Shown here piece by piece: positions 2,685-12,068 of a DNA stretch of 44,562 nucleotides. The notes under the pieces are model-generated. The model ran no database searches, had not been told where the DNA came from, and saw nothing but the letters and a program-made list of their open reading frames with translations. The stretch comes from an uncultured Ilumatobacter sp. (GTDB lineage Bacteria > Actinomycetota > Acidimicrobiia > Acidimicrobiales > Ilumatobacteraceae). Each line of letters begins with the position of its first letter. Position 1 is the stretch's first letter. The stretch lies in NCBI GenBank assembly GCA_937919625.1, contig CALFRK010000115.1, positions 1-44,562 of the forward strand. Reading direction: 5' to 3'. The translations under genes and the position numbers were made by a program.

Positions 2685-3968
2685 TTAGGCGGTGCGTTTG
2701 CGGCTGAGGGCGTCGACCGATGAGGCGGCCAGCAGCGCCAAACCGGCGCAGATGAATTTGGTTCCCGAGCTGCCGAAGTCGATCTCGCCGAATCCCAGCG
2801 GACTCCGCTTGCCGACCAGTGTGAGGCCGTTCGGGATCAGTGCCAGCACGAAGCCGCCGAGCACGGCGTTGAGCATGCGACCTTTACCACCGAACAACGA
2901 CGTGCCACCGATCACCGCCGCCCCAACCGCCAGCAGCAGTGTGTCGTTGGCGCCCGTGTTCGGGTCGACCGAGTTGACCCGGCTGGCGAGGAACGCTCCG
3001 CCGATACCAGCCAACAGACCGCACACGGCGAACGCCGTGAGACGAATCCGGGCGACGTTGATGCCGGCTCGTCTGGCCGCCTCTGGGTTGCCGCCGACGG
3101 CGTACAGGTGGCGGCCGTAGCGGGTGCGATTTAGCACGAAAGTCATGACCAACAGCAGGATCAATACCAGAGGGATCACGTACGGGATGCCCCGGATCGG
3201 TGCCGGAGCGCTGGCGAACGCCCGATTCTGATTCAGCATCGTCGTGAAGATCACAGCACCAGCGGTGGCCAGCCCCAGCTTGAGGAGGATTAGCGAGGTC
3301 GGGATCGCCCCGTGCGACACACGTTGTTTACGAAACATGGAGAGACCAAGCAGGACGAGCGCCACGATCACGAAGATCCACGAGACGGTCGGTGTCATAT
3401 TGCCGCCGACGAGGTCCTTGATGATTTGATTCTCGATCCGGACGCTTCCGCCGTTCTTCACGAGTTGAAGCAAGATGCCCTGGAACAGCAACACGTTGGC
3501 GAGCGTTACGACAAATGATGGAATCCCGACCTTCGCCACCATGAAGCCGGTGAACGTGCCGAGCGCGATGGCGACCACCGCTGCGGCGAGGATCGACGGC
3601 ACCAACGGCCAATTTTGAAGTCGTGTTGCCAATACCGCCCCCGCGACCCCGGCCGTGAAACCGGCCGCCAGATCGATCTCGCCGAGCAACAGCACGAACG
3701 AGACAGCCATCGCGATCACGATCACCGACGAGGCCTGTTCGAGGAAGTTGGCGAGGTTGATCTTCGAAAGGAAGCTGTCGGGGCTGACCGAGCCGAACAA
3801 GGTAACCAACACGACGATCGCCAGGATCGCCGGAAGTGACCCGAGTTGGCCGTCTTTGAGGCGAGCCACGGTGTCGCCGAGCGAGCCCCTGAGGTCTTTC
3901 TTTACGCTGTCGAGGGCGAAGTCGCCGACGACTTGGCTCTCGCTGGTGGAACTGGTGGTATCCGACAT
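2685..3968 (-). CDS. xylH: Pentose ABC transporter permease (XylH-like)
   Basis: A 427-aa polytopic membrane protein of the CUT2 sugar permease family (XylH/RbsC type). A short cytoplasmic N-terminus is followed by about ten or more hydrophobic segments, with the family stretches GEIDLAAGFTAG (around residue 95), VGIPSFVVTLANVLLFQG, GRHLYAVGGNPEAARRAGI and VGAAVIGGTSLFGGKG. It would form the homodimeric channel for sugar uptake. Its ATG overlaps the stop of the ATPase gene (ATGA at 3970-3965), so the two are translationally coupled. The operon order is binding protein, ATPase, permease. Substrate assignment to xylose rests on the adjacent xylA and xylB genes. Confidence 0.92.
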   Translation of the reverse strand: MSDTTSSTSESQVVGDFALDSVKKDLRGSLGDTVARLKDGQLGSLPAILAIVVLVTLFGSVSPDSFLSKINLANFLEQASSVIVIAMAVSFVLLLGEIDLAAGFTAGVAGAVLATRLQNWPLVPSILAAAVVAIALGTFTGFMVAKVGIPSFVVTLANVLLFQGILLQLVKNGGSVRIENQIIKDLVGGNMTPTVSWIFVIVALVLLGLSMFRKQRVSHGAIPTSLILLKLGLATAGAVIFTTMLNQNRAFASAPAPIRGIPYVIPLVLILLLVMTFVLNRTRYGRHLYAVGGNPEAARRAGINVARIRLTAFAVCGLLAGIGGAFLASRVNSVDPNTGANDTLLLAVGAAVIGGTSLFGGKGRMLNAVLGGFVLALIPNGLTLVGKRSPLGFGEIDFGSSGTKFICAGLALLAASSVDALSRKRTA

Positions 3969-4744
3969 CAGAGCGTCGCCTCCTCAGTGATTCCGACGTC
4001 GCCGGAGCGGCCGGAGGTGATGAGTTCGACGAGGAACTCCCTGGTGGTGTCTTTGGTGACTGCGACATCGGCGGCGATCCGCCCGAGGTACATGGCCGCC
4101 ACACGGTCGGAGACCTCGAGCACTTCATTCATGTTGTGACTGATGATCACGACCCCTAGCCCCTGATCGGCGAGGCGTCGCACCAGATCAAGAACCTGGC
4201 GGGTCTGCGCAACACCTAGCGCCGCCGTCGGCTCATCGAGCAACACCACCTTCGAATTCCAGAGCACTGCCTTGGCGATCGCCACGGTCTGGCGCTGGCC
4301 GCCCGACAGCGAGCTGACCGATTGGCGGACGCTCTTGACCGTGCGCACCGACAGACTGGCCAGTGTGTCGCGAGCAGCCTGTTCCATCGAGCCTTCGTCG
4401 AGCAGCCTGTTCTTGGTGCGTTCACGTCCGAGGAACATGTTCTGCACGATGTCGAGGTTCTCGCACAAGGCGAGGTCCTGATACACCACCTCGATACCCA
4501 GGCCCGCGGCGTCTTTTGGGCTGTCGAGGTCGACCCGCTCGCCCTCGAACCGAAACTCGCCGGAGTCGGTGCCGTAGATGCCGGTGATGGTCTTGACCAG
4601 CGTCGACTTGCCGGCGCCATTGTCGCCGATCAATGCTGTGACCTTGCCGGGGTAGACGGCGAAGTCGACATCGTGCAGCACGTGCACTGGTCCGAATGAT
4701 TTGTTGATTCCGATCGCCTCGAGGATCGGTGCGTCTTCAGTCAC
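3968..4744 (-). CDS. xylG: Sugar ABC transporter ATPase, single cassette (XylG-like)
   Basis: A 258-aa ATPase with Walker A GDNGAGKS (40-47), Q-loop near VVYQD (87-91), signature LSGGQ (146-150), Walker B VVLLDEP (166-172) and switch His 203. It would power the importer as a dimer. Classic XylG/RbsA proteins have two cassettes in about 500 residues; this one has a single cassette, as in the FrcA type. The start is the GTG at 4744, which has an AGGGGG ribosome-binding site about ten bases upstream. The open frame extends to 4855, but that extension is unlike the family and crosses an intergenic hairpin. It overlaps the permease start by four bases. Confidence 0.9.
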   Translation of the reverse strand: MTEDAPILEAIGINKSFGPVHVLHDVDFAVYPGKVTALIGDNGAGKSTLVKTITGIYGTDSGEFRFEGERVDLDSPKDAAGLGIEVVYQDLALCENLDIVQNMFLGRERTKNRLLDEGSMEQAARDTLASLSVRTVKSVRQSVSSLSGGQRQTVAIAKAVLWNSKVVLLDEPTAALGVAQTRQVLDLVRRLADQGLGVVIISHNMNEVLEVSDRVAAMYLGRIAADVAVTKDTTREFLVELITSGRSGDVGITEEATL

Positions 4745-4826
4745 TGAGCTTTGCCCCCTGGTAGTTGGCGAAACATTACATGAGGCGTGCCGGCCCAATG
4801 GTGTTGCCTCGGCGCCGTGATGCGAC

Positions 4827-4856
4827 GGTGGCCGCCCTCCGTGGAGAGCGGCCACC
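4827..4856 (-). promoter_or_regulatory. Strong intergenic stem-loop between xylF and xylG
   Basis: Inverted repeat GGTGGCCGC (4827-4835) and GCGGCCACC (4848-4856) with further inner pairing CTC/GAG, giving a near-perfect 30-nt hairpin. It lies in the 146-bp gap after the binding-protein gene. There is no T-run on the transcribed strand. Such hairpins often protect the upstream mRNA from 3' decay or partly terminate, giving more binding protein than membrane components; that role is inferred. Confidence 0.65.
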
Positions 4857-4890
4857 AGCCGAACATCAGATTGGGGTGCTGATCAACCGA

Positions 4891-6984
4891 TCAGACACCG
4901 TTTGCCGTGCAGAGGTCTTCGATGCCTGCACACACGTCGTCACGAGAGACGAAGCCGTCTTCGACGGGGATGTGAACGTCGCCGATGAAGATCGGCTGAA
5001 CCTGCGCCTGGACGTAGGGGATGTCGGTCACTTCGTTGTTGATCGTGGCGTTGGCCCCGAGGTCGGTGCCGTTAAGCAATGCGACTGCTGCGGCGACGGC
5101 GCCTTCGGCTTCCTTGACGACGGGCTTGTAGACGGTCATGCACTGGGTGCCTTGGAGGATCGCCCGGAGGCCATCGACCGTGGCGTCCTGACCCGTTGTC
5201 GGGAGGGCGAGACCATTGTCAGCAAGGACTGCCTGAGCAGCCAGCGAGAGACCATCATTGGCAACCAACACACCGTCGACGTTGCCGCCGGCTGCGGTGA
5301 GCAGCTGCTCGAAGATCACGCCGCCCTGAGCGTTGTCCCAGTCCGGAACGGCTTCTTCGCCAACAGTGACGAAACCGGCGCCTTCGATGGCTGCCTGGTA
5401 GCCCTGCTTGAACAGCGTGGCGTTGTTGTCGGTCGGCGAGCCGTGGAGCTGGATGATGTTCTTGCCCTGGGTGTCGCCACCGAAGCACTCGATCAGGCCT
5501 TCGCCTTGGGCGGTGCCCACAGCGACGTTGTCGAACGAGACGTACACGTCAGCGGAGCCGCCGAGGGTGAGGCGGTCGTAGTCGATGTTTTTGACACCGG
5601 CTGCGGCAGCCTTTTCCTGGATCGCGGCGCCCGACTCGGAGTCGAGGTTGACAATCGCCAGTACGCCGATCCCGTCGGCGATCATCTGATCGGCGATCGT
5701 TGCCATGTTGTCCTTGTCGCCTTCGGCGTTTTGGATCAAACACTCGATGCCGGCAGCGTCACACGCAGCCTGGATCAAAGGACGGTCAAACGACTCCCAA
5801 CGAGCCGACGAAGCAGAGTCAGGCAAAATGAACCCAGCCTTACCACCGGCAGCCGAATCGTCGACAACGACATCACCAACGCCGTTTGCGGCGCAGAGGT
5901 CTTCGATGCCTGCGCAGACGTCGTCAGCGGAGACGAAGCCGTCTTCGACGGGGATGTGAACGTCGCCGATGAAGATCGGCTGAACCTGCGCCTGGACGTA
6001 GGGGATGTCGGTCACTTCGTTGTTGATCGTGGCGTTGGCCCCGAGGTCGGTGCCGTTAAGCAATGCGACTGCTGCGGCGACGGCGCCTTCGGCTTCCTTG
6101 ACGACGGGCTTGTAGACGGTCATGCACTGGGTGCCTTGGAGGATCGCCCGGAGGCCATCGACCGTGGCGTCCTGACCCGTTGTCGGGAGGGCGAGACCAT
6201 TGTCAGCAAGGACTGCCTGAGCAGCCAGCGAGAGACCATCATTGGCAACCAACACACCGTCGACGTTGCCGCCGGCTGCGGTGAGCAGCTGCTCGAAGAT
6301 CACGCCGCCCTGAGCGTTGTCCCAGTCCGGAACGGCTTCTTCGCCAACAGTGACGAAACCGGCGCCTTCGATGGCTGCCTGGTAGCCCTGCTTGAACAGC
6401 GTGGCGTTGTTGTCGGTCGGCGAGCCGTGGAGCTGGATGATGTTCTTGCCCTGGGTGTCGCCACCGAAGCACTCGATCAGGCCTTCGCCTTGGGCGGTGC
6501 CCACAGCGACGTTGTCGAACGAGACGTACACGTCAGCGGAGCCGCCGAGGGTGAGGCGGTCGTAGTCGATGTTTTTGACACCGGCTGCGGCAGCCTTTTC
6601 CTGGATCGCGGCGCCCGACTCGGAGTCGAGGTTGACAATCGCCAGTACGCCGATCCCGTCGGCGATCATCTGATCGGCGATCGTTGCCATGTTGTCCTTG
6701 TCGCCTTCGGCGTTTTGGATCAAACACTCGATGCCGGCAGCGTCACACGCAGCCTGGATCAAAGGACGGTCAAACGACTCCCAACGAGCCGACGAAGCAG
6801 AGTCAGGCAAAATGAACCCCGCCTTGCCGCCGCCGCCCGACGGGGCTGCCGTCGTAGCGGTGGTACCCGAGTCACTGGTGTCTTCGACAGGACCGCTGGT
6901 GTCGTCGTCGTCGCCGCCACATGCTGCGGCGACAAGCGAGAGCGCTGCGATCAACACAACACCCTTCTTGAACTGGTTCCTCAT
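4891..6984 (-). CDS. xylF: Xylose-binding lipoprotein with two fused, nearly identical binding domains
   Basis: A 697-aa exported sugar-binding protein. A lipoprotein signal (RNQFKKGVVLIAALSLVAAAC, lipobox LVAAAC with Cys 22) and an acidic Ser/Thr linker precede two type-1 periplasmic binding domains of about 315 residues each, joined by a short linker (GVGDVVVDDSAAGG). Each carries the XylF/ribose-binding pattern: KAGFILPDSASSARWESF, IADQMIADGIGVLAIVN, NIDYDRL, GSPTDNNA, VANDGLSLAAQAVL and LPTTGQDAT. Usual XylF proteins have one domain of about 330 residues. The two domains differ only at the last residues (SADD/SRDD, LCAANG/LCTANG). A GGGGG ribosome-binding site lies nine bases before the ATG. 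The gene is first in the transport operon, behind two ROK-type operators. Confidence 0.92.
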   Translation of the reverse strand: MRNQFKKGVVLIAALSLVAAACGGDDDDTSGPVEDTSDSGTTATTAAPSGGGGKAGFILPDSASSARWESFDRPLIQAACDAAGIECLIQNAEGDKDNMATIADQMIADGIGVLAIVNLDSESGAAIQEKAAAAGVKNIDYDRLTLGGSADVYVSFDNVAVGTAQGEGLIECFGGDTQGKNIIQLHGSPTDNNATLFKQGYQAAIEGAGFVTVGEEAVPDWDNAQGGVIFEQLLTAAGGNVDGVLVANDGLSLAAQAVLADNGLALPTTGQDATVDGLRAILQGTQCMTVYKPVVKEAEGAVAAAVALLNGTDLGANATINNEVTDIPYVQAQVQPIFIGDVHIPVEDGFVSADDVCAGIEDLCAANGVGDVVVDDSAAGGKAGFILPDSASSARWESFDRPLIQAACDAAGIECLIQNAEGDKDNMATIADQMIADGIGVLAIVNLDSESGAAIQEKAAAAGVKNIDYDRLTLGGSADVYVSFDNVAVGTAQGEGLIECFGGDTQGKNIIQLHGSPTDNNATLFKQGYQAAIEGAGFVTVGEEAVPDWDNAQGGVIFEQLLTAAGGNVDGVLVANDGLSLAAQAVLADNGLALPTTGQDATVDGLRAILQGTQCMTVYKPVVKEAEGAVAAAVALLNGTDLGANATINNEVTDIPYVQAQVQPIFIGDVHIPVEDGFVSRDDVCAGIEDLCTANGV
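4946..5835. repeat. Direct repeat copy B (C-terminal domain of xylF), 890 bp
   Basis: By direct reading this block matches 5930-6819 base for base at an offset of 984 bp (328 codons). The match stops sharply at both edges. Between 4900 and 4945 there are several mismatches to the other copy, and from 5836 on the sequences diverge again. Confidence 0.9.
5930..6819. repeat. Direct repeat copy A (N-terminal domain of xylF), 890 bp
   Basis: Partner of 4946-5835 in the same orientation and in the same reading frame. The identity includes third codon positions, so protein-level selection cannot explain it. Confidence 0.9.
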
Positions 6985-7085: not shown

Positions 7086-7133
7086 AACATTTGTCGAGAG
7101 ACCCGACAAATGTTTGTTGTAGCCTGCGACAAA
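7086..7133. promoter_or_regulatory. Double ROK operator upstream of xylF
   Basis: Two 21-bp sites of the form TTTGTyG-N7-CGACAAA lie 23 bp centre to centre. Site 1 (7090-7110) is a perfect inverted repeat that extends to AACATTTGTCG/CGACAAATGTT (7086-7096 and 7104-7114). Site 2 (7113-7133) is TTTGTTG-N7-CGACAAA. The module ends 101 bp upstream of the xylF start. Its architecture recurs upstream of xylA, which makes the neighbouring ROK protein the likely binder; this link is inferred. Confidence 0.8.
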
Positions 7134-7134
7134 T

Positions 7135-7152
7135 AGCTTGATTTGTCAAGCT
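7135..7152 (-). terminator. Small inverted repeat at the end of the ROK gene
   Basis: AGCTTGA-TTTG-TCAAGCT, 7-bp perfect arms, overlaps the ROK stop codon. On the minus strand it contains TTGACA, so it could equally hold a -35 element for xylF. The role is undecided. Confidence 0.35.
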
Positions 7153-8389
7153 AAACCTCGCCCACGATCAACGTTCGGGCGCACCATGGCAGCGGTGGTT
7201 CGGCGCCTGCCGGATCGGCCAATACTTGTTCCCAAGCCCACTCGGCTGCGCCAAGCAACGGGCCATCGAGCCCGAGCCCAGATGGGAGCACGCCGACCTG
7301 TTGGCGAACAACGTCGAACACGCGCCGATCGAGCTCGGATGACATGGCGGCGGCGACGTACGGGAACAGCCGAGCAAACAGGCCGCCCAACACCACGACG
7401 TCGGGGTCGAAGGTGTTGATGATGCCCGCCAGCCCGAACCCGAGCCAGCGACCGTGTGCGTCCATGGCGGCCAACACGTCAGCGTCGCCGGCGGCGGCGC
7501 TGGCCAACACGTCATCGACGACGGCCCGCCCGCCGCCCGCAGCGCGTCCGACCCGGCGCAGCAACGCCTCCTCGCCGACCTCTGTTTCCCAGCAGCCCGA
7601 CGAGCCGCATCTGCATGCCAGCCCGCCCGGGTTGACAGGGATGTGGCCGACTTCGCCGGCGAATCCCGCGGCGCCTCCGAGTGGTCGGCCATCGGCGATT
7701 ACGCCGGCACCGACGCCAACCTCGCCCGAGATGTAGACGACGTCGTGCATCCCGGTTGCGACGCCGCGTCGCACCTCTGCGAGAACACCGAAATCGCCGT
7801 CGTTGGCGATCACAACGGGTAGGTCGATCGGAAGCGCCAGCCGAATCAGATCCCCGAGCGGCACGTCGTTCCAACCGATATTGGGCGCCACGACCACCGT
7901 CTTGTCGGATCGCCGCACCACACCGGCGACGGCCACCCCGACTCCGTGAACGACGACCGTGGTCGGGAGCTCGTCGAGCATCTTCGAGGTCAGATCGACG
8001 AGGTTGCGCACGGTGTCGTCGACGGGTCTGGCCTGACGTGTGCGATCGACTCTGCGATGATCGAGCACGTGCCCGCCCAGCGAGATGGCGGCGACAGCCA
8101 GCGAGTCGACGAGCACCTCCATGGCGATCGTTACATGATCGGATGTCGGCATCACGATCGGCGACGGCCGCCCTGGACTGCCGTCGGACGCAGACCGCTC
8201 TTCGTGCACAAAACCCATCTCGGTCAGCTCGCCGACCAGGGCACCGACCGCGCTGCGGGTCAGACCACTGCTGGCGACGAGGTCCGACCGCGTCGCCGCG
8301 CCACCGAGATGGAGGCTGCGCAAGATCGCCGACAGGTTGGCCTGGCGCACCGATTCACTTCTCGAACCGGCCGTCTCGTTTCGTCGCAC
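7151..8389 (-). CDS. ROK-family transcriptional repressor of the xylose genes (XylR-like)
   Basis: A 412-aa protein with an N-terminal winged helix-turn-helix (about residues 15-75, NLSAILRSLHLGGAATRSDLVASSGLTRSAVGALVGEL) and a C-terminal ROK (repressor/ORF/kinase) domain. The ROK domain shows VVIANDGDFGVLAE, GVGAGVIADGRPLGGAAGFAGEVGH and the Cys cluster CRCGSSGCWE that binds zinc in this family. The family pairs sugar sensing with DNA binding. Position between the transport and isomerase operons and the shared operators on both sides indicate control of both units and possibly of itself. The start is a GTG at 8389 with AGGAG just upstream. The downstream neighbour xylF has its own promoter region. 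Confidence 0.88.
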   Translation of the reverse strand: MRRNETAGSRSESVRQANLSAILRSLHLGGAATRSDLVASSGLTRSAVGALVGELTEMGFVHEERSASDGSPGRPSPIVMPTSDHVTIAMEVLVDSLAVAAISLGGHVLDHRRVDRTRQARPVDDTVRNLVDLTSKMLDELPTTVVVHGVGVAVAGVVRRSDKTVVVAPNIGWNDVPLGDLIRLALPIDLPVVIANDGDFGVLAEVRRGVATGMHDVVYISGEVGVGAGVIADGRPLGGAAGFAGEVGHIPVNPGGLACRCGSSGCWETEVGEEALLRRVGRAAGGGRAVVDDVLASAAAGDADVLAAMDAHGRWLGFGLAGIINTFDPDVVVLGGLFARLFPYVAAAMSSELDRRVFDVVRQQVGVLPSGLGLDGPLLGAAEWAWEQVLADPAGAEPPLPWCARTLIVGEV

Positions 8390-8463: not shown

Positions 8464-8511
8464 AACATTTGCTCTATCCAGCGAGAAACATTTGTTGTAG
8501 CCTGCGACAAA
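8464..8511. promoter_or_regulatory. Double ROK operator upstream of xylA
   Basis: This 48-bp module aligns without gaps to 7086-7133. The right-hand site (8491-8511, TTTGTTG-N7-CGACAAA) is identical over all 21 bp, including the spacer, to site 2 near xylF. The left-hand site (8468-8488, TTTGCTC-N7-CGAGAAA) is degenerate. Centres are again 23 bp apart, and the module ends 100 bp before xylA. It also lies upstream of the divergent ROK gene, consistent with autoregulation. Confidence 0.78.
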
Positions 8512-8611: not shown

Positions 8612-9937
8612 ATGACCGACACATTCTTTGCCAGCGTCGACACGATCCGATACGAGGGTCCCGACAGCGACAATCCGTTGGCATTCCGCTGGTATGACGC
8701 CGACCGCTTGGTTGCGGGTCGCAACATGCGCGATCACCTCCGATTCGCCTCGTGCTATTGGCATAGTTTCGACTCGGGTGGTTCAGATATTTTCGGCGCT
8801 GACACGTTTGATCGGCCCTGGTTGGGTGCTGGTGATCCGATCGAAAACGCAGAGGCCAAGATGGCGGCTGCCTTTGAGTTCTTCGAGAAGCTGACGGTCC
8901 CGTTTTGGTGTTTCCATGATCTCGACATCGCCCCGGAGGGCCATTCCTTCAAGGACACGGCAGCCAACATCGATCACATGATCGACCTTGCGGCCGAATA
9001 CCAGGAGCGCACGGGCGTCCGGTTGTTGTGGGGCACAGCGCGATTGTTCGGACATCCACGGTACATGGCGGGCGGTGCCACCAATCCTGACCCCGAGGTG
9101 TTCGCCTACGGCGCGGCACAGGTGGCGCACTGCATGAATGCCACCCATCGCTTGGGTGGTCAGAACTATGTCTTGTGGGGTGGACGCGAGGGATACGACA
9201 CGCTGCTCAACACCGACATGAAGCGTGAACTCGACCAGCTCGGCAGGTTCCTCAATATGGTCGTCGAACACAAGCATGCGATCGGGTTCAAGGGTGCGAT
9301 CCTGCTCGAGCCGAAGCCCTTCGAGCCGACCAAACATCAGTACGACTACGACGTCGCTGCGGTGCACGCCTTCTTGCAGAAGTATGGGCTCGAGCACGAG
9401 ATCAAGGTCAACATCGAGGTCAACCACGCCACGCTCGCCGGGCACGACTTTGCCCATGAGATCGCGGCCGCCTCAGCCGCGGGGATCTTCGGGTCGATCG
9501 ACGCCAACGCTGGCGACGATCGGCTCGGCTGGGATCTCGACCGTTTTCCGGTGTCGGTCGAGCAGATGACGCTCGGCATGCTCGAGATCCTCCGCGCCGG
9601 TGGCTTGACGACTGGCGGCCTCAACTTCGACGCCAAGCTGCGTCGCCAGTCGACAACTCGCGATGATCTGTTTCACGCCCATATTGGCGGGATGGACACG
9701 ATGGCGCGCTCGCTACTGGCAGCCGCCAGCATCATCGAGACCGGCGAGCTCGATCGGTTCCGCGACGAACGCTATGCCGATTGGAACGAACCGCTCGGCA
9801 CAAGCATTCTCGCCGGTGACCACACGCTGGCGGGGCTGCACGAGCGGGCGTTCGGGGCGCCTGAGCCGGTAGAGACCTCTGGCCGCCAAGAGATGCTAGA
9901 GAACCTCGTCGCCCGCCACATCGAGCGGGTGAAGTAA
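8612..9937 (+). CDS. xylA: D-xylose isomerase, class II
   Basis: A 441-aa cytoplasmic TIM-barrel enzyme converting D-xylose to D-xylulose with two divalent metals. The length and motifs match class II (E. coli-like, 440 aa) rather than the shorter Streptomyces class I. Visible residues, each one position after the E. coli number, are catalytic His 102 and Asp 105 ([11 protein letters not shown]), metal ligands Glu 233, Glu 269, His 272, Asp 297, Asp 308, Asp 310 and Asp 340, and the class motif [14 protein letters not shown]. Both metal sites look complete. An AGGAG ribosome-binding site lies before the ATG. Its stop overlaps the xylB start (TAATG). It is controlled by the double operator 100 bp upstream. 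Confidence 0.97.
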
Positions 9938-11367
9938 TGCCGCTCGTGCTCGGCGTCGATTCGTCGACGCAGTCGACGAAGGTCGAAGCACGTGACATCG
10001 CGACCGGCAAGGTCGTCATCCGTGGCAACGCCGCCCACCCCCCGACCACGCCGCCACGGTCCGAACAGGACCCGGTGGCGTGGTGGGCGGCGTTGACCGA
10101 GGCGATCGCCCAACTCGGAGAGCACCGCTCGGACGTGGTGGCGATCTCAGTGGCCGGACAGCAACACGGACTCGTATTGCTTGACGCCGCCGGTGACGCG
10201 CTGCGACCCGCCAAGTTGTGGAACGACACGACCTCGGCACCCCAAGCCGATCGGCTGGTCGAGGCATTCGGTGCCGAACGTTGGGCTACAGCGATCGGCA
10301 GTGTGCCGGTGGCGGCGTTCACGATCACGAAGCTGGCATGGGTTGCCGAGCATGAACCCGAGCTGCTCGACCGGGTGGCCCACGTCATGCTGCCCCACGA
10401 CTACATCACGTGGCGCCTCACGGGTCAGCACGTGACCGACCGCGGCGACGCCAGCGGGAGTGGCTGGTTCGATCCGACCGGCGACAAGGTGATCGCCGAT
10501 CTGCTCGGCGCCGCCGTCGGTGGCGATGGCACGACTTGGCTCGATCGAGTCCCTCGTGTGCTCGGCCCGAACGAGGCGGCAGGCACGATCACCGCCGAAG
10601 CGGCTGCGTCGCTCGGCCTGCCTGCCGACCTGCTGGTCGGGCCTGGCAGCGGCGACAACATGGGTGCCGCCCTCGGCTTGGGCCTCCGGGCTGGTGACGT
10701 CGCGGTCTCACTCGGAACTTCCGGCACGGTGTTTGCCGTGTCCGACACCGCCACCCACGATCCGTCGGGGGCCGTGGCCGGATTCGCCAGCGCCAGCGGC
10801 GAGTTCCTCCCGTTGGTGTGCACGCTCAACGCCACCAAGGTCACCGACACCGTCGCCCGATGGCTCGGTACCGACCCGCCCGGCCTGGCCGAGTTGGCAC
10901 TGACCGCCGTCGAAGACCCGGGCTCGGCCCTGCTGGTGCCCTACTTCGACGGCGAACGAACCCCCAACCTGCCAGATGCAACGGGCACGTTTGCCGGCCT
11001 CACCAACACCACGACCAGAGCCCAACTGGCTCTTGCCGCCCACGACGGTGTGTTGTGTGGCCTGCTCAACGGCGTCGACGCGCTGCGTCAGGTCGGTGCA
11101 ACGATCGGTGGGCGGGTGTTTTTGATCGGCGGCGGCTCGCGCTCGGTTGCCTACCGGCAGCGCTGCGCCGACCTGCTCGGCCAAACGATCACGGTCCCCG
11201 ACTCCGACGAAACCGTGGCAGCCGGCGCCGCCGTCCAAGCCGCCGCCATCACGAACGGGGAACCGCTCGGCGTGATCTCCCAACGCTGGCAACTCGGCGT
11301 CGGCACCGATGTCACACCGCAGTCCGATGGTTCAGCGATCCGCCAGCGCTACGCCACGCTGAGTTGA
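9937..11367 (+). CDS. xylB: Xylulokinase
   Basis: A 476-aa FGGY-family kinase that phosphorylates D-xylulose to xylulose 5-phosphate for the pentose phosphate pathway. It shows the N-terminal phosphate loop LGVDSSTQSTK (residues 4-14), the substrate motif VAGQQHGLVLLD (about 71-82), GPGSGDNMGAALGLG with the likely catalytic Asp (around 234), and the C-terminal ATP-site stretch VFLIGGGSRSVAYRQRCADLLGQ. The length is usual for XylB. The ATG overlaps the xylA stop by one base, so the two genes are translationally coupled and give a complete two-step pathway from xylose. Confidence 0.96.
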   Translation: MPLVLGVDSSTQSTKVEARDIATGKVVIRGNAAHPPTTPPRSEQDPVAWWAALTEAIAQLGEHRSDVVAISVAGQQHGLVLLDAAGDALRPAKLWNDTTSAPQADRLVEAFGAERWATAIGSVPVAAFTITKLAWVAEHEPELLDRVAHVMLPHDYITWRLTGQHVTDRGDASGSGWFDPTGDKVIADLLGAAVGGDGTTWLDRVPRVLGPNEAAGTITAEAAASLGLPADLLVGPGSGDNMGAALGLGLRAGDVAVSLGTSGTVFAVSDTATHDPSGAVAGFASASGEFLPLVCTLNATKVTDTVARWLGTDPPGLAELALTAVEDPGSALLVPYFDGERTPNLPDATGTFAGLTNTTTRAQLALAAHDGVLCGLLNGVDALRQVGATIGGRVFLIGGGSRSVAYRQRCADLLGQTITVPDSDETVAAGAAVQAAAITNGEPLGVISQRWQLGVGTDVTPQSDGSAIRQRYATLS

Positions 11368-11486: not shown

Positions 11487-12068
11487 ATGGACTACCCAGC
11501 ACAACTCGAGGTACAGACACCTGACAAGGTCGCCAACTGGCGACCGTTGGTGCATTGGCTTATGGCCATTCCGCACTTCATCGTGATGTACGTCTTGATG
11601 ATCGTGGCCGAGGTCGTTGCCCTGATCTCGTGGTTCGCGATTCTGTTCACCGGCAAGCTGCCAGAAGGGCTGGCGAACTTCAGTTGCATGGCACTCCGCT
11701 ATCAGATGCGCGTCTCGGCGTTCGTCGGATTCCTGCACGAGGAGTACCCACCGTTCGAATTCGCGACCACACCAGCCGACCCGGGCGGCACACCCGTCAC
11801 GGTCGACTTCGTGCCGGCGCTCGGCGGCCGCAACCGGCTCACGTGTGCGCTCCGCATCATCTGGCTCATCCCGGCCGCGATCGTGACCATGATCATTTTC
11901 CTCATCGCGGAGGTCTGCTGGTTGATCGCCTTCTTCGCCGTGCTGTTCACCGGCAAGTGGCCCTCAGGGCTGCACGCCTGGGCGATGAAGGGCCTGCGCG
12001 CCTCACTGCGGCTCAGCGCCTACGCCTTCTTGTTGACCGACGAGTACCCACCGATGAGCTTCGACTGA
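11487..12068 (+). CDS. DUF4389-family membrane protein
   Basis: A 193-aa protein with two similar halves, each containing a long hydrophobic stretch (PHFIVMYVLMIVAEVVALISW and a second around IIWLIPAAIVTMIIFLIAEVCW) followed by AILFTGKLPEGL or AVLFTGKWPSGL and ending in EEYPPF or DEYPPM. This internal duplication and the TGK-P-GL motif are typical of DUF4389, which is common in Actinobacteria and has no established function. The ATG at 11487 has an AGGAGG sequence nine bases upstream; an ATG at 11478 would touch it. A TANNNT box (TAGTCT) sits about 55 bp upstream. It is convergent with the next gene across a strong hairpin. Confidence 0.8.
   Translation: MDYPAQLEVQTPDKVANWRPLVHWLMAIPHFIVMYVLMIVAEVVALISWFAILFTGKLPEGLANFSCMALRYQMRVSAFVGFLHEEYPPFEFATTPADPGGTPVTVDFVPALGGRNRLTCALRIIWLIPAAIVTMIIFLIAEVCWLIAFFAVLFTGKWPSGLHAWAMKGLRASLRLSAYAFLLTDEYPPMSFD

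Follow-up and report, generated by a model that had tools for sequence, protein, structure and literature searches.

Two near-identical XylF-like domains in one putative lipoprotein gene of Acidimicrobiia, apparently homogenised by recombination

The GlnPQ importer of Lactococcus contains two tandem substrate-binding domains that are fused to the membrane domain and differ in specificity (PMC8025302). The receptor gene described here encodes, like GlnPQ, two receptor domains per chain joined by a short linker. In GlnPQ, the two domains are reported to compete for one translocator and are part of the membrane protein, whereas those of the present receptor are near-identical and belong to a separate putative lipoprotein (PMC8025302). 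A second related case is OpuA, in which the binding domains are described as cooperating by staying near the membrane part. The likeness lies in OpuA's two identical binding domains per transporter, for which a millimolar local concentration and cooperative delivery are reported; the difference is that OpuA has two domains because its complex is a homodimer, each membrane part of which carries one of them (PMC11065425). Regarding sequence evolution, long-lasting concerted evolution of prokaryotic duplicates has been reported for 26 genes, called exceedingly infrequent, in which the copies are closer within than between species, mainly attributed to recurrent gene conversion (PMC6053082). Those duplicates are paralogous genes, and the word "transporter" is absent from the main text of that report (PMC6053082), whereas the present case concerns two domains of one gene. 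No description of two-domain xylose or PF13407 receptors, or of conversion within one, was found in the literature searched, in which subscription papers were represented mostly by the title and the opening of the abstract.

The window, i.e., the whole stretch of 44,562 nucleotides that was analysed, derives from an uncultured Ilumatobacter sp. The receptor gene (positions 4891–6984, minus strand) consists of 697 codons and a stop codon. By eye, the translation begins with a putative lipoprotein signal peptide (residues 1–22, positions 6919–6984) with the lipobox LVAAAC and Cys22, which is the sole signal of the 697-residue protein. Domain 1 (residues 54–369, positions 5878–6825) and domain 2 (residues 382–697, positions 4894–5841) are separated by the linker GDVVVDDSAAGG (positions 5842–5877), all on the minus strand. 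Both domains match the Pfam profile Peripla_BP_4 (PF13407), with a score of 305.9 bits against a curated cut-off of 35.1 for the protein; the matches fall into two stretches, of which the best covers profile positions 4–257 of 258. Since the whole two-domain protein scores 321.1 bits against the XylF equivalog TIGR02634, below its cut-off of 389.55, it is called XylF-like only. The nearest solved protein by sequence is the E. coli xylose-binding protein (PDB 3m9w, E 3.4e-37). A structure model of a single domain (39 aligned rows, pLDDT 94.1) has a XylF-type fold, with E. coli XylF (PDB 3ma0) as the best PDB match at a TM score of 0.89 (query). The domains thus share the fold of the XylF/ChvE group of D-xylose and multi-sugar binding proteins (PF13407; PDB 3ma0, 4ywh, and 3urm), with 30% identity to XylF. 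The group's motifs RW, YDR, DNNA, ND, GQDA, and TVYKP align with the window domain, and some of them presumably contact xylose in XylF. Unlike that group, the window protein has both of its full-length domains behind a single putative lipid anchor and scores under the TIGR02634 cut-off. The model of the whole protein (14 aligned rows) scored low (pLDDT 58.3, pTM 0.35), so no statement is made on the relative placement of the domains.

The receptor gene is followed on the same strand by genes for an ABC ATPase with one ATP-binding domain (positions 3968–4855 as the ORF is listed) and a sugar permease (BPD_transp_2, positions 2685–3968). Receptor, permease, and ATPase are separate genes, and no receptor domain is covalently part of a membrane subunit. 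Upstream lies the gene of a ROK-family regulator, XylR-like by context (positions 7151–8389, minus strand), and beyond it, on the opposite strand, those of the xylose isomerase XylA (positions 8612–9937; TIGR02630, 656.1 bits against a cut-off of 533.25) and the xylulokinase XylB (positions 9937–11367; TIGR01312, 442 bits against 380.25). With xylA and xylB adjoining the importer genes, this is a xylose utilisation locus, and gene neighbourhood and fold together suggest that the system imports xylose.

The preliminary description had reported one signal peptide followed by two in-frame XylF-like domains with a period of 328 codons, and an 890-bp core identical by eye between them. Translation and the two Pfam stretches agree with this architecture, and direct comparison of positions 4946–5835 with 5930–6819 (minus strand) showed the cores to be identical to the base over 890 bp, with a period of 984 bp, i.e., 328 codons. 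Accordingly, the two 316-residue domains share 99.4% protein identity. The same description held that the ends of the units had diverged, which is true of the C-terminal end of each unit. Beyond the core, 9 of 52 bp (positions 4894–4945) differ between the copies, giving two replacements (A353/R681 and A365/T693) and five codons with silent changes. At the N-terminal ends, the differences are confined to the linker and a single silent change at codon 55/383. The last 19 codons of each domain are hereafter called the tails: that of domain 1 (positions 5878–5934, minus strand) is of the VSADD type and that of domain 2 (positions 4894–4950, minus strand) of the VSRDD type. In the window gene, the copies differ at 1 of 888 core sites and 9 of 57 tail sites (Fisher p 5e-11).

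A search for two-domain XylF homologues in related genomes, proposed in that description, recovered both domains in two further members of the window's receptor family (family A). One is in G001, a single-contig genome with distinguishable copies; the other, L033 (Ilumatobacteraceae bacterium CRAIB_MAG93), belongs to a second genus, and its copies differ at 26% of third positions. L033 is the same as G192, whose contig L157 is its reverse complement, and this sets the window's family among the Ilumatobacteraceae of the class Acidimicrobiia. Pieces that fit a two-domain gene come from three further drafts: L034 (G004) contains domain 2 together with the final part of domain 1; in G003 (L010 and L026), the start of domain 1 lies at one end of a contig and the end of domain 2 at another such end; and in G135 (L117), an end of the domain-2 type borders the edge of a contig. 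Among 80 loci from named genomes, L033 has two domains, L034 is partial, and the other 78 have at most one domain match (E 1e-5). One- and two-domain genes are mixed within family A. In the window's own genome, there is no other match to the domain at E 0.001. A donor copy elsewhere in that genome was also sought and none was found, the two other matches covering only query residues 1–47, i.e., the signal-peptide stretch.

Synonymous divergence along the copies, a comparison also proposed at the outset, separates core from tail. For the core (codons 2–297), dS between domains 1 and 2 is 0.005 in the window gene, 0.009 in G001, and 0.474 in L033, whereas between genes it is 0.22 for G001 and L034, 0.65–0.67 for the window and G001, and 0.92–1.01 for the window and L033. 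For the tails, with 13–14 synonymous sites each, dS between domains 1 and 2 is 0.64, 0.88, and 0.67 in the window gene, G001, and L033, respectively. Core and tail differences number 4/888 and 18/57 in G001 (p 4e-20) and 98/888 and 14/57 in L033 (p 0.005). Moreover, the tails tend to match by position. The domain-2 tails of the window and L033 agree at 52/57 nucleotides without any amino-acid change, against 48/57 for the window's own two tails; those of G001 and L034 agree at 52/57, against 39/57 for G001's own; and the G135 tail agrees with the domain-2 tail of L033 at 53/57 and with its domain-1 tail at 43/57. The domain-1 tails of the window and L033 agree at 45/57, below the value within the window gene, and between more distant genes (window and G001, L033 and G001) the values of 36–42/57 show no clear sorting by position.

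For each of three genes, domains 1 and 2 come out as sisters in the core tree (support 100/100, 100/100, and 100/97), and a domain-1 clade (p-AU 0.003) as well as a domain-2 clade (7.6e-75) is rejected. Collectively, cores that are closer within than between genes and tails that keep their positional identity make concerted evolution inside one gene well supported. Gene conversion and unequal exchange passing from two to three and back to two copies leave the same trace here. The preliminary description had offered conversion of the core and the joining of two diverged paralogues as alternatives. The homogenised core is supported, with within-gene dS below between-gene dS in three genes and positional tails; recombination joining two diverged paralogues is a possible founding event. 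In the free core tree, G001 and L034 group with the single-domain genes L040 and L043 (85/92), and fusion may have occurred repeatedly; the test does not reject a tree that unites every two-domain gene in a single clade (p-AU 0.11). Homogenisation in the G001/L034 pair holds for any number of fusion origins.

The same concerted pattern recurs in a second family. Four more two-domain PF13407 receptor families (B–E) were found in Acidimicrobiia. In family E, 23 of 395 class genomes match at E 1e-60 or better, and both domains are present in G473, G430, G598, and G620. Within-gene dS is 0.004 in G473, 0 in G620, 0.004 in G598, and 0.398 (dN 0.010) in G430, and between two-domain genes of the family it is 0.30–1.05. 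In G534 and G653, the contig continues for 68 and 58 nt, respectively, after the domain and breaks off within a linker resembling the start of a second copy. The linker ESxPMAPVTQGPGGEEATPSG is common to G473 and G534, so the fusion probably predates their split. At the place of the second copy, G645 has an N-run, and the G650 gene ends near a contig edge.

The domains of families A–E are at most 36% identical (25–36% in local matches), and 2 of the 10 pairs lack a strong match (A–E, E 0.19; D–E, E 0.033). In the family sample of 200 genomes, 78 had a match, and two-domain genes occur in G000, G001, G192, G009, and G116. The RbsB-like receptor of the single-contig genome G009 (L155, G009:C1:2478000-2490000, ORF 4224–6179, minus strand) has an exact repeat of 867 bp with a period of 912 and lies downstream of its own ATPase and permease genes. 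The XylF-like receptor of G116 (L154, G116:C70:16000-26000, ORF 3924–6197, minus strand) has an exact repeat of 1022 bp with a period of 1077 and adjoins its own ATPase and permease genes. Single-domain relatives exist for the domains of G009 (56% identity, in G021) and G116 (55%, in G094). Together with the low identity among families A–E, these relatives point to separate fusions. The class sample comprised 148 genomes, of which 39 had a match, and the 64 rows represent 59 genes. Five of these 59 genes have two domains, as do three of the 57 outside the window's genus, those of G377 (L201), G473 (L202), and G430 (L203), all from outside the window's order. The repeat is exact over 956 bp in G377 and 997 bp in G473, and the copies of G430 have diverged. 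The G377 gene adjoins permease and ATPase genes, and that of G473 adjoins genes for a ROK protein, an M20 peptidase, and a permease. For families D and E, sugar binding is assumed from the Pfam family by itself. For comparison, two other receptor families were inspected within the window's bacterial family; by eye, no adjacent in-frame pair was seen among the matches listed for PF01547 receptors (101 genomes) or PF13458 receptors (101 genomes). Among the matches listed, to E 3.4e-46, for 149 genomes from across the phylum, none was seen by eye except G000 and G001. Most of these searches scored the first 5–20 candidates per genome.

We consider it likely that the window gene is a long-lived XylF-like self-fusion, homogenised by recombination, whose two equal heads on one anchor serve one translocator. 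The architecture, its presence in relatives, the homogenisation, and the low dN/dS between diverged copies are observed. A XylF-like receptor gene would have been fused to its own copy, the double form being old, and recombination between the halves, by gene conversion or by two-to-three-to-two unequal exchange, would restore the identity of the domains but stop at the diverged C-terminal tails and the linker. The resulting protein would present two equal sugar-binding heads in series on one lipid anchor, which may dock in turn on one permease/ATPase complex, so that each exported chain would provide a pair of binding sites and raise the receptor concentration locally. Because the heads are identical, competition between specificities would fall away, and the remaining effect would be a larger number of binding sites for each anchor and each exported chain. 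The advantage may be receptor dosage, with two working heads and xylose, judging from neighbourhood and fold, as the probable ligand. The benefit for local ligand capture predicted for a tethered two-domain receptor is plausible. The parallel proposal that the receptor serves both permease faces is disfavoured, as the OpuA authors judged simultaneous docking on the two halves unlikely (PMC11065425).

The main competitor is a neutral, recombination-prone duplication in which the domain alternates between one and two copies without benefit; we rate it as a substantial possibility, although clearly less probable than a maintained double receptor. It would account for the mixture of one- and two-domain genes in family A and for near neighbours that differ in copy number in family E, namely two-copy G598 and apparently one-copy G604 (dS 0.12), and G534, whose second copy is read from the linker at its contig end, and apparently one-copy G594 (dS 0.056). 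These single-copy genes may be real, but some may be collapsed assemblies of exact repeats. The recurrence in five PF13407 families and the low dN/dS between diverged copies (0.034/0.474 in L033 and 0.010/0.398 in G430) also argue against neutrality, the latter suggesting that both heads are kept intact. Either way, relatives that seem to carry one and two copies and are separated by a dS of 0.06–0.12 offer a compact natural setting in which to follow gene conversion within a bacterial gene, and identical copies in five PF13407 families of one bacterial class bear directly on whether importers profit from having several receptor heads on a single anchor. A bolder extension of the maintained double receptor, that Acidimicrobiia repeatedly and adaptively made PF13407-type receptors into self-tandem two-headed lipoproteins, kept identical by conversion for receptor dosage, appears doubtful to us; on that extension, the design would have been largely overlooked because exact copies of about 1 kb are broken or collapsed in short-read assemblies.

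Independent fresh tandem duplication in each lineage, with the differing ends as junction effects, is improbable as a general account. The exact cores of the window, G009, G116, G377, and G473 agree with it, as does a core tree that does not force a single origin, and it would fit families B, C, and D well, each of which turned up in a single genome (B and C among 200 family genomes each, D in the class sample). It is disfavoured for families A and E: tails with dS of 0.64–0.88 accompany cores with 0.005–0.009 in the window gene and G001, G001 and L034 have like tails and linkers and yet are each homogenised, and G473 and G534 share the ESxPM linker.

We give little credence to the possibility that the heads differ in role through their tails, such that docking, or full activity, is restricted to one of them. 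In both G001 and L034, identity between domains 1 and 2 ends at the same codon, followed by 18 and 20 mismatches, respectively, although, in each domain, 4 of the 63 sites before that point differ between the two species; in the window gene the boundary lies one silent base earlier. Besides, the RDD motif is kept in all six domain-2 tails seen (window, G001, G003, G004, L033, and G135). Both observations would suit distinct tail roles, but conversion halting at low homology explains the shared boundary without selection, and the window cores are identical.

Finally, an assembly artefact in which one unit was written twice is very improbable despite a draft assembly of 185 contigs and an exact 890-bp repeat, because the linker and tails differ between the window copies, a like architecture exists in two single-contig genomes, G001 and, in an unrelated receptor with an 867-bp exact repeat, G009, and the L033 copies differ at 26% of third positions. 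Contigs end inside the receptor gene or linker in L206 (G534), L209 (G653), L010 and L026 (G003), and L117 (G135), as expected if exact repeats of about 1 kb defeat short-read assembly. In family A, 11 genomes have a match with 75% identity or more, and such breaks affect 5 of them, against 1.9 expected for a 2.1-kb gene (P 0.02, from rounded genome figures), an excess that lends only indirect support. As a warning, short-read genomes may lack such two-domain genes or contain them in fragments.

The locus also contains candidate regulatory elements. A 23-bp operator-like element occurs upstream of the receptor operon (positions 7111–7133, plus strand) and upstream of xylA (CATTTGTTGTAGCCTGCGACAAA, positions 8489–8511, plus strand), with two mismatches between the sites and none expected from 100 shuffles; it is perhaps a site of the ROK regulator. 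Between the receptor and ATPase genes, folding revealed a 13-bp stem-loop (positions 4827–4856, minus strand, placed by eye) with a z of −3.33, to which 3 of 200 shuffles were equally stable; the true start of the ATPase gene is probably downstream of it. Stable hairpins also lie 3′ of the two-domain genes of G001, G009, and G116 (z −4.58, −3.97, and −5.81, respectively). In clostridial importers, hairpins are reported to keep receptor transcripts in excess (PMC9045158), and the stem-loop after the receptor stop codon perhaps sets an excess of receptor over translocator. Downstream of xylB, there is a 50-bp direct repeat (positions 11623–11672 and 11923–11972), whose copies are 76% alike at a spacing of 300.
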